Assembly: GCF_014822185.1 (NCBI RefSeq)
Contig: NZ_QVLR01000047.1
Span: 62,001 to 126,000, forward strand
Reading direction: 5' to 3'
Length of the DNA: 64,000 bases
Origin: Azoarcus sp. Aa7
Lineage (GTDB): Bacteria > Pseudomonadota > Gammaproteobacteria > Burkholderiales > Rhodocyclaceae
Each line of letters opens with the position of its first letter. The first letter of the stretch is position 1. The notes below the pieces were generated by a model, which was not told the origin of the DNA, made no database searches, and saw only the letters and a list, made by a program, of their open reading frames with translations. The position numbers and the translations under genes are program-made. Of the stretch, positions 36,779 through 46,300 are shown piece after piece.

Positions 36779-36854
36779 GGGGGTATAGCTCAGTTGGTAG
36801 AGCAGTTGACTCTTAATCAATTGGTCGTAGGTTCGAATCCTACTGCCCCCACCA
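36779..36854 (+). tRNA. tRNA-Lys (anticodon CTT), integration site of the element
   Basis: A 76-base tRNA with CCA. GGGGGTA pairs with TGCCCCC, and the anticodon loop is CTCTTAA. It lies 40 bases after the first tRNA-Lys. Its last 47 bases are the left part of a 49-bp repeat whose second copy is at 46252-46300, so the element supplies the present 3' half and leaves the gene functional. Confidence 0.95.
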
Positions 36855-36856
36855 GA
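36808..36856 (+). repeat. attL: 49-bp direct repeat in tRNA-Lys
   Basis: Identical over 49 bases to 46252-46300. It starts in the anticodon stem of the tRNA and ends two bases past the CCA. Flanking bases differ on both sides. Confidence 0.95.
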
Positions 36857-36881
36857 ATTCAGTAATAAAAACAAGCAATTA

Positions 36882-36908
36882 GGCCAGATCACACGATCTG
36901 GCCTTTTT
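36882..36908 (+). terminator. tRNA terminator supplied by the element
   Basis: GGCCAGAT (36882-36889) pairs with ATCTGGCC (36896-36903), followed by TTTTT. It lies inside the element just past attL and serves the tRNA-Lys transcript. Confidence 0.85.
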
Positions 36909-36921
36909 GTTGCCGAGCGCC

Positions 36922-36961
36922 TTTGTAAGAGCTTTGTAAGTGGTGCGCGCCCATGTAAGTG
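36922..36961 (+). other. Candidate integrase arm-type sites, left end
   Basis: Three copies of a TGTAAG motif in one orientation: TTTGTAAGA (36922), TTTGTAAGT (36933) and CATGTAAGT (36952). The same motif recurs near attR. Such short direct repeats beside an att core are typical integrase arm sites. Confidence 0.6.
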
Positions 36962-36975
36962 AATCGGGCGGGCAA

Positions 36976-36997
36976 CAAAAAGGGGCCGAAGCCCCTT
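36976..36997 (-). terminator. Terminator of the leftmost element gene
   Basis: On the minus strand AAGGGGC TTCG GCCCCTT is followed by T residues. It is a stem with a stable TTCG loop placed 20 bases after the stop of the 115-residue gene, keeping element transcription from entering the tRNA genes. Confidence 0.85.
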
Positions 36998-37016
36998 CGC
37001 GCCCTGCGCGTCGCCC

Positions 37017-37364
37017 TCACGCTCGCCGCGCTACGAGCCACTTCTGATACTGCGTGCGTGCCGTGTAGAAGGCGATCCCGAGTCGATCGCACTCGGTCAT
37101 CACGTCGCGACGGCGGCAGTTCGGGTCCTTCGCGTGCATCTCGTCGGCGATCTGCCACACGAGCTTGGTCGGATGCTCGATGCCTTCGACGGACTGACGA
37201 CGGACATTCTTCTCGGTGACCACAGGTGCAGGCGTCTTCTCGATGATCGCCCACGCGCTCGGGGCAATCTGCTCGATGTCGAAGCGTTCGGCGTAGTCCT
37301 TGCCGTGCAGGCGGCGCGCTGCGCCTTGAGCGGATTTCTTGGTCAGGTAGGTCGTGGCGGTCAT
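37017..37364 (-). CDS. Small element protein with CRRRD...TARTQYQ domain (115 aa)
   Basis: Preceded by an AAGGAG site. The last 48 residues (KLVWQIADEMHAKDPNCRRR through YTARTQYQKW) are clearly homologous to the C-terminus of the neighbouring 95-residue protein. The domain looks helical with a possible HTH (RRDVMTECDRLGIAFYTART). The N-terminus is unrelated to that of its paralogue. I do not recognise a characterised family; a DNA-binding or accessory role is a guess. Confidence 0.7.
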   Translation of the reverse strand: MTATTYLTKKSAQGAARRLHGKDYAERFDIEQIAPSAWAIIEKTPAPVVTEKNVRRQSVEGIEHPTKLVWQIADEMHAKDPNCRRRDVMTECDRLGIAFYTARTQYQKWLVARRA

Positions 37365-43871: not shown

Positions 43872-44089
43872 TTCCCATCCGCCCCGGTCAGCCGTTCGAG
43901 ATCAGCCGCAGCCCATAGCAAGCGACCGTTCGGAAGCTTCACTGGGCGCATGCCGAGGTAATGCCCGTTCAGGCACAGCGCCTTGGCGACCGTCTGACGA
44001 CGGATGCGCAACGCATCTGCGACTTCTTGGGTGGAAAGGTAGCCGCCGACGAGGTCGGCGCGCTGGTTTGAAGCGGTGGCGGTTTTCAT
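43868..44089 (-). CDS. AlpA-like HTH regulator/excisionase (73 aa)
   Basis: HTH_17-type domain GYLSTQEVADALRIRRQTVA followed by the wing LNGHYLGMRPVKLPNGRLLW. AlpA-type proteins switch on excision and early genes in PICI-like elements. The start is uncertain: ATG 44089 is used, GTG 44122 is an in-frame alternative, and neither has a strong ribosome site. Its stop overlaps the replication gene start. Confidence 0.75.
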   Translation of the reverse strand: MKTATASNQRADLVGGYLSTQEVADALRIRRQTVAKALCLNGHYLGMRPVKLPNGRLLWAAADLERLTGADGK

Positions 44090-44164
44090 GGCATCGAGTC
44101 CGTTTGAATTGACCTGAGCCACGTTACAGGGCCGCTTGTCACGTCATGAAACGTCACATGACGA

Positions 44165-44728
44165 CTATTTAGCGGCCTTCTTCTGTTCGCTCACAATGTT
44201 GCGAATCGTACCGTCATCTAGACCCCATTTCTTGGCAAGGGGCTTTGCGTAGGCGCGCTTCCCTTGCTTCAGCATTTCAAGGTAGTCGGCATATATAGCC
44301 TGCTTTTGCACATTGCTCGCGGAAACCCGTTCCTCGGTTTTCTTCTTGAGCCCCCCTCCCGTGCGATTCCTATCGCCTTTGCGCTTCTTGAATCCATCTG
44401 CGACGACCACACGCCCCTGCACCATCTCGGCCTGCCATGCTGCTTGGATCGCACCCATCGCGGCGGTTGCTGCGCCGACAGCATCCCCCTGTTCGATGGC
44501 TCTCTCGGCGTGAGTAGCCCAGTGGATGACCCGGTGCAGGTGCTCGGCCTCGGGGTAATCGGGAATGTCGCCGACCTCGGACGCGCCCTCGACTTCGCGT
44601 CTCAACTGCTGACAAATGAGGTCGAGGTACGCCCGAGCGCGCAAGATCGTTCGCTGCAACCACCGGGGTGTTGGTTGCGCGGGGTCGAGCATCGACACGA
44701 GATCAGGAATGGGTGGTTTAGATTTCAT
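44165..44728 (-). CDS. Hypothetical element protein with C-terminal HTH (187 aa)
   Basis: The start at 44728 has GGAGGG seven bases upstream, formed by the 3' end of the integrase gene; an ATG two codons earlier overlaps the integrase stop as ATGA but crowds that site. An N-terminal helical domain (PRWLQRTILRARAYLDLICQ) and a basic linker precede a resolvase-like HTH (AYAKPLAKKWGLDDGTIRNI). Likely a DNA-binding protein; family unknown to me. Confidence 0.65.
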   Translation of the reverse strand: MKSKPPIPDLVSMLDPAQPTPRWLQRTILRARAYLDLICQQLRREVEGASEVGDIPDYPEAEHLHRVIHWATHAERAIEQGDAVGAATAAMGAIQAAWQAEMVQGRVVVADGFKKRKGDRNRTGGGLKKKTEERVSASNVQKQAIYADYLEMLKQGKRAYAKPLAKKWGLDDGTIRNIVSEQKKAAK

Positions 44729-44730
44729 CG

Positions 44731-46098
44731 TCATCCCTCCTGCGCCCGCAGGCTCACGACGTTCGACGGGGCCTGCTCGTTCTTCTCGACGGCCTCCAGT
44801 TTCGCTTCCCACGCTACCAGCGCCGCGCGTTTCTCGTCCGTGTAGCTGTGCCGGTCGTAGTGCGTCGCCTGCACCCCGCTGATGCCGTGGGACAGCAGTT
44901 GCGCGCGAACGTCGCGACTGATTCCCATGGCGGCGAGCATCGTTTCACAGGTGCGGCGGATGTCGCGCAGGTCGAACGGCTCGCCCTTCAGCGTGGTGAC
45001 GATCTCGACCAGCCGCTTTCCCGGCGTTTCTATCGTCATCGGCACGCGGCCATGCGTAGAGAATAACCACAGGTTTGCGAACTCAGGATCGCGCCCATCG
45101 TCCTCGGCGCGCTTCTTCTCGCACGCCTTGGCACGCTCGACCAAACCTGTGACCAACGCGGCAGCCTTCGGCGCGAGCGGCAACAGATGCTCCCTCGGCG
45201 TCGTGCGCTTGCCTTTGGCGTCCCACAGTCGCAGGGTCGCGGTCTCGGCGTTGTAGTCGCTGACCTTGGCGCGCAGCAACTGCGCCATGCGCTGACCGCC
45301 CGCGAGCACAGCGAGGCGCAAGGCTTGATCCGGCAGTTCCGTGCCGATCGCTTTCAAGTAGGCGCGCAACTCGTCGGCGCTCAGCGTGCGGTTACCCGCC
45401 TTGACCGGAATCGCCGGGATCGCATCGACCGGGTTGTGCTCCACGCGGAACGCGATCAGATCGGCAGGCAGGGCGGAATCGAACGGCGCACGCTTCGCCG
45501 CATTGAAGGCAGCAGACAAATAACTGCGCAGGGTGCCGGCGGTGCGTTCCTTGCCCTTCTCCCGCGCCTTGCGAACGATCGCGGCAATCTGATGCGGCGT
45601 CACTGCCCGAGCGTGCAGACTCGCGATGCTCGGGTGCGCCTCGAACACATGCACCTTGAACACCGAACGGGTCGAGGCGGCGCTCCGGTCCTTGCCCTTC
45701 GCCAAGAGGTGATTGACGTAGGCGTCACACAGCGCGCGCAGGGTGTATTTCTGCTGCTCCTCCGCTTCCCGTTTCGCAGCCTCGGCGGCGACACGCTTGG
45801 CCTCAGCGGCGGCGATGCGCTCGCGCTTTTCGTCGCGCGGGTCGGTGCCCTGATCAACGAGTGTTTGCAGTCGCCGCGCCTCGATTCGGGCATCCTCAAG
45901 GGTCCATGCCCGAACGTCGCCAACGGTCACGCGCAGCGCCTTGCCGTGCAGATTGGTCTGAAACACGAACGCTTGCGCCCCGGCCGTCGCACGAACGGCG
46001 AGCCCCGGCGCTTCGGAGTCCCACAAAAACACTTGTGATTTGTCGGGCGGACACGCGAATTCCCGGACGCGCCCAGTCGTAAGTTTTGTCCTCGCCAT
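44731..46098 (-). CDS. P4-type tyrosine integrase
   Basis: A 455-residue site-specific recombinase. An N-terminal DUF4102 arm-binding domain (LTTGRVREFACPP) is followed by a charged helical linker, core-binding domain and catalytic domain. Catalytic residues are Arg270 (GGQRMAQ), Arg381 (DIRRT), His404 (LLSHG) and Tyr414 (THYDRH). The usual His before the second Arg (PHDLRRT in relatives) is Arg here. The start at 46098 has GGTGAG six bases before. It lies by attR and reads inward. Confidence 0.92.
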   Translation of the reverse strand: MARTKLTTGRVREFACPPDKSQVFLWDSEAPGLAVRATAGAQAFVFQTNLHGKALRVTVGDVRAWTLEDARIEARRLQTLVDQGTDPRDEKRERIAAAEAKRVAAEAAKREAEEQQKYTLRALCDAYVNHLLAKGKDRSAASTRSVFKVHVFEAHPSIASLHARAVTPHQIAAIVRKAREKGKERTAGTLRSYLSAAFNAAKRAPFDSALPADLIAFRVEHNPVDAIPAIPVKAGNRTLSADELRAYLKAIGTELPDQALRLAVLAGGQRMAQLLRAKVSDYNAETATLRLWDAKGKRTTPREHLLPLAPKAAALVTGLVERAKACEKKRAEDDGRDPEFANLWLFSTHGRVPMTIETPGKRLVEIVTTLKGEPFDLRDIRRTCETMLAAMGISRDVRAQLLSHGISGVQATHYDRHSYTDEKRAALVAWEAKLEAVEKNEQAPSNVVSLRAQEG

Positions 46099-46112
46099 GA
46101 CCATCTCACCTT

Positions 46113-46183
46113 CATGTAAGTACTTTGTAAGTGAAATCGTACAATGGCGATCACCTCACATCAACCAAATGATAGATGTAAGT
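46113..46183 (+). other. Candidate integrase arm-type sites, right end
   Basis: CATGTAAGT (46113), TTTGTAAGTG (46124) and GATGTAAGT (46175), in the same orientation as the left-end copies. They lie between the integrase start and attR; the stretch 46184-46251 holds no gene. Confidence 0.6.
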
Positions 46184-46251
46184 TTTTGATTTACCGTACT
46201 TTTAATCTTGAACCCAGTTGATCGGGATTGATGAAAGTAGCCGAAATTTTC

Positions 46252-46300
46252 GACTCTTAATCAATTGGTCGTAGGTTCGAATCCTACTGCCCCCACCAGA
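46252..46300 (+). repeat. attR: 49-bp direct repeat, displaced tRNA-Lys 3' end
   Basis: Exact second copy of 36808-36856, representing the original host tRNA 3' half. It has no 5' half, so it is not a functional tRNA. Confidence 0.95.

Follow-up and report, generated by a model that had tools for sequence, protein, structure and literature searches.

Phage-inducible chromosomal islands (PICIs) of Gram-negative bacteria, among them EcCICFT073 and PmCI172 (Fillol-Salom 2018, PMC6092414), carry int, alpA and pri-rep genes, mostly in one direction, an att site, an iteron origin 3' of the replication gene, a lone capsid homologue and, in some members, terS; for PmCI172 the capsid homologue was described together with small capsids. 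A lone capsid gene was listed for 21 of the 29 reference Gram-negative PICIs (PMC10111431). Such genes have been described since 2018, and their role was left open in the accessible text of both reports (PMC6092414, PMC10111431). In the literature cited here, as far as its accessible text goes, the only lone capsid homologue with a worked-out role is Ccm of SaPIbov5, a Gram-positive cos-type Staphylococcus aureus pathogenicity island (SaPI). Ccm occupies the pentamers of a T=4 shell, depends on the helper capsid protein and possesses a delta (scaffold) domain of 87 residues compared to 128 residues in the helper protein (PMC5052747, PMC8569155). Capsid-forming PICIs (cf-PICIs) bring along protease, portal, connectors, the large terminase subunit (TerL) and HNH (PMC10690885), and integration at fis is a feature of the phage-inducible chromosomal minimalist islands (PICMIs; PMC10803314). 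Here we analyzed 64,000 nucleotides of Azoarcus sp. Aa7 (contig NZ_QVLR01000047.1, positions 62,001 to 126,000; termed the window), which hold an att-bounded island in a tRNA-Lys gene with a single HK97-type major capsid protein (MCP) gene and a gene for a small terminase subunit (TerS). On balance, we consider it somewhat probable that the island is a Gram-negative-type PICI-like satellite, whose MCP acts as a Ccm-like capsid redirector together with the capsid protein of a helper phage, and which adds its own TerS.

The sequence features that were tested support membership in the Gram-negative PICIs. Starting from the integrase end, the genes follow as int, a gene of 215 amino acids (aa), an AlpA-like gene, a primase with AAA_25 helicase domain, a second helix-turn-helix (HTH) gene and the MCP gene, and then three small genes, TerS, a 100-aa gene and two paralogous small genes (Table 1). 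This corresponds to the int, alpA/merR, pri-rep order, with an AlpA-like gene that is weak by Pfam and the 215-aa gene located between it and int. A single direction prevails: the minus strand encodes 13 of the 14 genes listed, and the plus strand only the gene at 37903-38550. Of the capsid morphogenesis homologue and terS found in some Gram-negative PICIs, the island has both. A putative PICI-type origin lies directly 3' of the replication gene. All four TGCATGAWT sites of the window are found at 41676-41807 (132 bp), while 100 shuffles gave a mean of 0.54 and a maximum of two sites per whole window. The GC content of the 200-base bin 41700-41899 was 0.46, with 0.57 and 0.63 in the neighbouring bins. 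This iteron array was absent from the initial annotation of the window. In size the island is similar to the described Gram-negative PICIs; it differs from them by its MCP, which is of the type found in Pseudomonas phage PAJU2 and lacks the delta region, and by its primase-AAA_25 replication protein.

With SaPIbov5 Ccm the island shares a lone HK97-type capsid homologue with a shortened N-terminal scaffold region in a satellite without protease (none is known in SaPIbov5 from the accessible text); it differs by the complete lack of delta and the presence of TerS. Like the cf-PICIs it has its own capsid gene and TerS, whereas their protease, portal, connectors, TerL and HNH were not found. Its location in tRNA-Lys differs from the fis site of the PICMIs. 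The initial annotation had described an island of about 9.5 kb with exact 49-bp att repeats at tRNA-Lys, integrase, AlpA-like gene, primase/helicase, MCP and TerS, and the repeat search, ARAGORN and Pfam/PHROGs agree with this. Likewise, the genes overlap in several places and all 14 frames are open, as had been noted. The stated absence of portal, protease, TerL and tail genes was borne out by Pfam/PHROGs, with which 11 of the 14 listed genes were scanned (all except the two 61-aa genes and the 115-aa gene), and by own profiles, built mostly from phage records, over all island frames of at least 50 aa. Connectors were not found in the Pfam/PHROGs scan of these 11 genes. The sole tail-named match, of the integrase to a baseplate family (E 0.055), was dismissed as chance level.

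The MCP matched phrog_617, a family of protease-capsid fusions, only in the C-terminal half of the family (positions 284-621 of 626). Among annotated phages 91 records were matched, all with less than 60% identity; identity to the PAJU2 protein is 34.6% over 95% of the protein. In PAJU2 the head genes are ordered TerS, TerL, protease-MCP fusion, two small genes and portal, so that the TerS/MCP order of the island is the reverse; the island TerS shares 33.8% identity over 99% with PAJU2 TerS, and matched PF05119 with an E-value of only 0.016. As judged from the alignment to protease-MCP fusions and the N-terminal length, the island MCP has neither a protease nor a delta region. By eye, its first residues look like the end of a protease domain, which suggests that the MCP may have arisen by internal deletion of a protease-MCP fusion. 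A profile of 16 such MCPs matched solved major capsid proteins including HK97. Single-protein scans of genome contigs confirmed no close relative of the MCP or the integrase.

Lone capsid genes of this kind are not restricted to the window. MCP searches matched 5 of 274 genomes of the class and 6 of 150 relatives, an MCP profile matched 32 of 399 genomes of the order, and a wider profile 15 of 369 genomes of the class; the four search sets share genomes, and the own genome is part of each. Neighbourhoods were fetched for part of the matches (8 + 16 + 11 regions), together with 13 further regions, 12 of them picked by primase matches. Using own profiles, 17 loci including the window had neither TerL nor portal. 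We counted 13 of them, leaving aside L069 and L178, which lie near contig ends, and L182 and L183, whose capsid match is very weak. The 12 further lone-capsid loci belong to the same class, eleven in other genomes and one in the own genome (L067, L068, L071, L127, L128, L129, L131, L136, L173, L177, L180, L181). For a Pfam scan 84 frames of these loci were listed, of which 14 shadow or flanking frames were dropped and 4 were replaced by the opposite-strand frame. Of the resulting 70 frames of at least 200 aa, 13 matched Phage_capsid, and no portal or TerL family was present among the 25 best of the 33 Pfam families matched; the remaining eight had one member each and weaker E-values than the 25.

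Repeats of 47-63 bp, for which as many as two mismatches were tolerated outside the window, bound eight of the 13 loci (window, L068, L071, L127, L136, L173, L180, L181). Six of these islands measure 8.4-10.3 kb, the others 13.2 and 16.4 kb. Repeats of L128 and L177 were only 14-18 bp long, and no convincing att repeat was found in L067, L129 and L131. The integrase profile gave no match in L127, whose integrase region consists of short open frames, and none in L129, whose contig starts 2.9 kb away; in L127, L129 and L131 no replication gene was found by profile. TerS-like genes were seen in L067 (PF05119, 5.1e-4), L068 (Phage_Nu1, 8.5e-5) and L177 (PF05119, 1.1e-4), all under the Pfam cut-offs, with support from PHROGs for L067 and L068. 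L127 carries an HNH gene; in L071 the protease is still fused to the MCP, and a neck or minor-tail gene is present. The second island of the own genome, L173, encodes an integrase, a weak AAA_25-type ATPase and an MCP (PF05065, E 1.5e-9), with no portal or TerL by own profiles.

Several observations were made alongside. Five lone-capsid islands (L127, L136, L181, L071, L177) have a tape-measure-like gene, whereas further tail genes are scarce or absent. The gene matched PF09718 in L127 and L136 and PF20155 in L181, and a one-sequence profile of the 415-aa gene of L071 also matched L127, L136 and L177. These islands give the impression of targeting the capsid as well as the length of the tail; putative tape measure genes (tmp) in satellites were already mentioned in the accessible text of PMC12987554. 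The locus L060:4940-12783 contains integrase, AAA_25 helicase, a protease-MCP fusion and portal, with no TerL by profile; from its gene content it stands midway between lone-capsid islands and those with full capsid sets, and it was kept apart from the lone-capsid count. L138 and L140, beside tmRNA and tRNA-Ser, are cf-PICI-like islands of the same taxonomic order, with integrase, primase or AAA_25, MCP, portal and TerL. Two short viral contigs considered as satellites (L011, L012) were rejected as phage pieces, since by eye both show a long protease-MCP fusion and portal-like frames, L012 additionally a TerL-like frame. L014 and L015 were discarded as relatives, their similarity being limited to the primase and small genes.

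In a 44-row tree of the MCP domain, calculated without the later found L173, L177, L180 and L181, the window MCP groups with L127, L128 and L129 (support 99/97) in a clade of four that contains satellites only. The clade is spread over families of the order: L127 belongs to a second family, and a third one contains L128 and L129. The nine satellite rows of the tree need six label changes, which fits several captures and may also include losses. A separate clade (99/92) comprises the four cf-PICI-like MCPs, which have retained 73-124 residues ahead of the domain. Using a profile score of at least 100 as cutoff, fewer than 50 residues before the capsid domain were found for 5 of 9 lone MCPs (window, L067, L127, L128, L136), compared to none of 21 MCPs encoded near a TerL and/or portal gene (Fisher p 0.0009), in a post hoc comparison made after the difference had been noticed in the data. 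Merging related rows gave 3 of 5 versus 0 of 21 (p 0.004). Left out were L069 at a contig end, L145, whose MCP is divided between two frames, and L149, which has a short N-terminus and a separately annotated scaffold gene; counting L149 against the difference also gave p 0.004. Weak-scoring rows were left out on both sides. Those with TerL or portal (L141, L142, L174, L179) have 63-123 residues, and the lone ones 66 (L173), 116 (L177), -6 (L180) and 51 (L181); by Pfam coordinates, an N-terminal part is clearly retained in L177, of intermediate length in L173 and L181, and short in L180. As the longest possible frame was used, L068 and L129 were scored as having an N-terminus; internal starts would make both delta-less. 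L131 and L071 keep the delta region, and because of such exceptions delta loss among lone MCPs is a tendency, not a rule. A bolder proposal, which we regard as possible and rather doubtful, is that delta-less MCPs are a repeatedly evolved tool of satellites. MCPs would have been captured from different head modules, protease and scaffold would have been cut off, and the bare shell domain would serve as a size switch that works only when mixed with helper capsid protein.

The integration site was also followed in sister species. Comparing the island DNA with 17 genomes of the same genus, matches were obtained in 10 (own genome included), mainly to the integrase gene at 67-75% DNA identity and otherwise short, and no second copy of the whole element was found in the 17. 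Seven sister-species loci were fetched, each with a related integrase (62-74% aa identity; partial at two loci). An alpA relative is present at five of them, and an att-like sequence at four (L150, L153, L155, L156). L153 and L156 include the tRNA-Lys pair, and only there were both ends seen; for L150 and L155 the far end was not seen. MCP, TerL and portal were not found by own profiles in 19.5 kb at any of the seven loci. The site thus appears to accommodate related islands whose cargo differs. No full prophage with these genes, which would have spoken for prophage decay, was seen at this site, the two loci with the tRNA-Lys pair included. On the stretch of L155 with the att-like sequence, positions 1-1911 hold highly repetitive frames that by eye resemble a translated CRISPR array. 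In the own genome the only capsid matches were the island MCP and, with the wider profile, that of L173.

The likeliest job of the lone MCP, by analogy with SaPIbov5 Ccm, is co-assembly with the helper capsid protein in order to redirect the shell, not the formation of an own shell. We infer excision, packaging and capsid redirection of the island from its gene content, and the following course is proposed. Infection by a helper phage would switch on the AlpA-like gene, and the island would excise and replicate from its own origin. The island TerS would steer helper TerL to island DNA, and the island MCP would join the helper capsid protein during assembly and redirect the shell to a form suiting the genome of about 9.5 kb. 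Lacking delta and protease, the MCP should rely on the helper protein for scaffolding, portal and maturation. As MCP and TerS both resemble the PAJU2 module, the helper probably carries a PAJU2-type head.

We are aware of several points which weigh against this interpretation. In the accessible text of PMC6092414 (Table 1) the lone capsid gene of E. coli EcCICFT073 was not needed for transfer. By this result the island MCP could be dispensable or serve another end. The EcCICFT073 capsid gene belongs to a different capsid family. Ccm keeps its 87-residue delta domain and the island MCP has none, so that the mechanism may differ. The own genome gave no match to Phage_portal PF04860, TerL_ATPase PF03354 or GpA_ATPase PF05876, and a helper would accordingly come from outside or belong to other families. 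In L128 and L131, one gene each aligned with the C-terminal portion of families that PHROGs labels as portal protein (phrog_1289, E 2.2e-7 and 4.6e-16, respectively; in L131 also phrog_2271). This gene (168 aa in L131) has no Phage_portal match and by eye resembles the one located after the portal in PAJU2-type phages; we interpret its product as that accessory protein, although the family names speak against describing the two loci as portal-less. The AlphaFold2 model from an alignment of five rows was unusable (mean predicted local distance difference test score, pLDDT, 30.8), so the MCP fold rests on family matches. The AlpA assignment is sub-threshold in Pfam (HTH_17, about 3.5e-4); it is based on this match together with relatives of the gene near related integrases at five of the seven sister loci.

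Alternatively, the MCP might build a complete shell of its own, with only portal, TerL, protease and tail given by the helper, which would make the island a reduced cf-PICI. Its open gene in a satellite-only clade, the existence of satellites with full own capsid sets (PMC10690885) and the presence of L138 and L140 in the same taxonomic order agree with this. It is hard to reconcile with an element in which no delta region, protease or portal gene was found, with Ccm making no capsids alone (PMC8569155, accessible text), and with the separate clade and long upstream regions of the cf-PICI-like MCPs. We therefore regard an own shell as unlikely, and the initial proposal of a new, smaller satellite type making its own shell could not be upheld: a lone capsid gene is already present in published Gram-negative PICIs, Ccm needs the helper capsid protein, and the island does not match the cf-PICI gene list. 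Since the layout of int, alpA, pri and lone capsid, with terS in some, is known from Gram-negative PICIs, the notion of a new type is only partly supported.

The delta-less MCP might also be mainly an interference factor. It would poison the assembly of helper capsids or slow it down, which would protect the host and favour the satellite, and the island DNA would travel in ordinary helper capsids. Expression of Ccm alone lowers phage titre 10^3-10^4-fold (PMC5052747), EcCICFT073 is packaged in full-size capsids (PMC6092414), and a subunit without delta could be dominant-negative. We consider this improbable, as the presence of TerS and the recurring small island size suggest selection related to packaging. 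A prophage remnant, with most genes lost and MCP and TerS left by chance, is very improbable. MCP and TerS do resemble the same head-module type, and the MCP is reminiscent of a protease-MCP fusion reduced to its C-terminal half, in which, by eye, a short stretch resembles the protease end. Against decay stand the reversed MCP/TerS order compared to PAJU2, the open frames, the exact att repeats, the iteron array and PICI-type replication gene, the MCP clade that contains only satellites, drawn from three families of the order, and the seven sister loci with related integrase and no phage head gene by own profiles. The initial view of a discrete integrated satellite, not a decayed prophage, is supported by these features, the compact origin and the similar islands elsewhere.

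Table 1. Features of the island in the window and location of the second lone-capsid island of the same genome.
Feature	Coordinates	Strand	Evidence and remarks
Att-bounded island	36808-46300		~9.5 kb
tRNA-Lys (ctt), integration site, intact	36779..36854	+	ARAGORN
Att repeat, tRNA end, 49 bp, exact	36808..36856	+	overlaps tRNA-Lys(ctt)
Paralogue b, 115 aa	37017..37364	-	repeat D1, 71% DNA identity over 121 nt to paralogue a
Paralogue a, 102 aa	37457..37765	-	phrog_7864 2e-4; repeat D1
215-aa gene, possible cargo	37903..38550	+	no Pfam match over cut-off, no PADLOC match
100-aa gene	38681..38983	-	no Pfam, PHROGs or PADLOC match
TerS, 135 aa, PAJU2 type	38968..39375	-	phrog_12559 2.8e-18
61-aa gene	39588..39773	-	open frame
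61-aa gene	39770..39955	-	open frame
77-aa gene	39937..40170	-	open frame; weak phrog_12541
Lone HK97-type MCP, 359 aa	40157..41236	-	PF05065 6.4e-15, phrog_617 1.4e-39
Second HTH/excisionase-like gene, 100 aa	41339..41641	-	HTH_17 3.6e-4 (under Pfam cut-off), phrog_66 4.2e-6
Putative origin, four iterons TGCATGAWT	41672..41811	-	3' end of primase gene; alternating orientation, local GC dip
Primase + AAA_25 helicase (Pri-Rep type), 698 aa	41775..43871	-	PF13481 4.6e-37, PF22763, phrog_3022 2.7e-79
AlpA-like HTH regulator, 84 aa	43868..44122	-	HTH_17 3.5e-4, under Pfam cut-off
215-aa gene, overlaps int	44165..44812	-	no Pfam or PADLOC match
Tyrosine integrase, 457 aa	44731..46104	-	PF13356 1.3e-12, PF00589 5e-9
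Att repeat, integrase end, 49 bp, exact	46252..46300	+	
Second lone-capsid island of own genome (L173)	L173:6504-14898, contig C14		51-bp repeats ending in tRNA-Met

Among the remaining genes, PADLOC gave no match for the six small or cargo proteins of the island submitted. For the paralogue pair at 37017-37765, several related stretches were observed in the viral contig L015 and one in L063.

No publication on delta-less satellite capsid proteins was found by titles and beginnings of abstracts, a search whose coverage mostly excludes subscription papers and preprints. The scaffold-less MCP lineage is likely new, and the 12 further lone-capsid loci, the satellite-only clade of four and the missing delta in 5 of 9 lone MCPs seem to be so as well. 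Lone-capsid islands are present in several families of the order and the class, and two can reside in a single genome in which searches for three families revealed no helper. A scaffold-less, satellite-only MCP clade in compact att-bounded islands offers a simple sequence criterion for such proteins; if delta-less MCPs were indeed a repeatedly evolved satellite tool, scaffold loss would be a sequence signature separating parasitic shell proteins from self-sufficient ones. The same islands provide a natural test set for capsid-size redirection in Gram-negative hosts.

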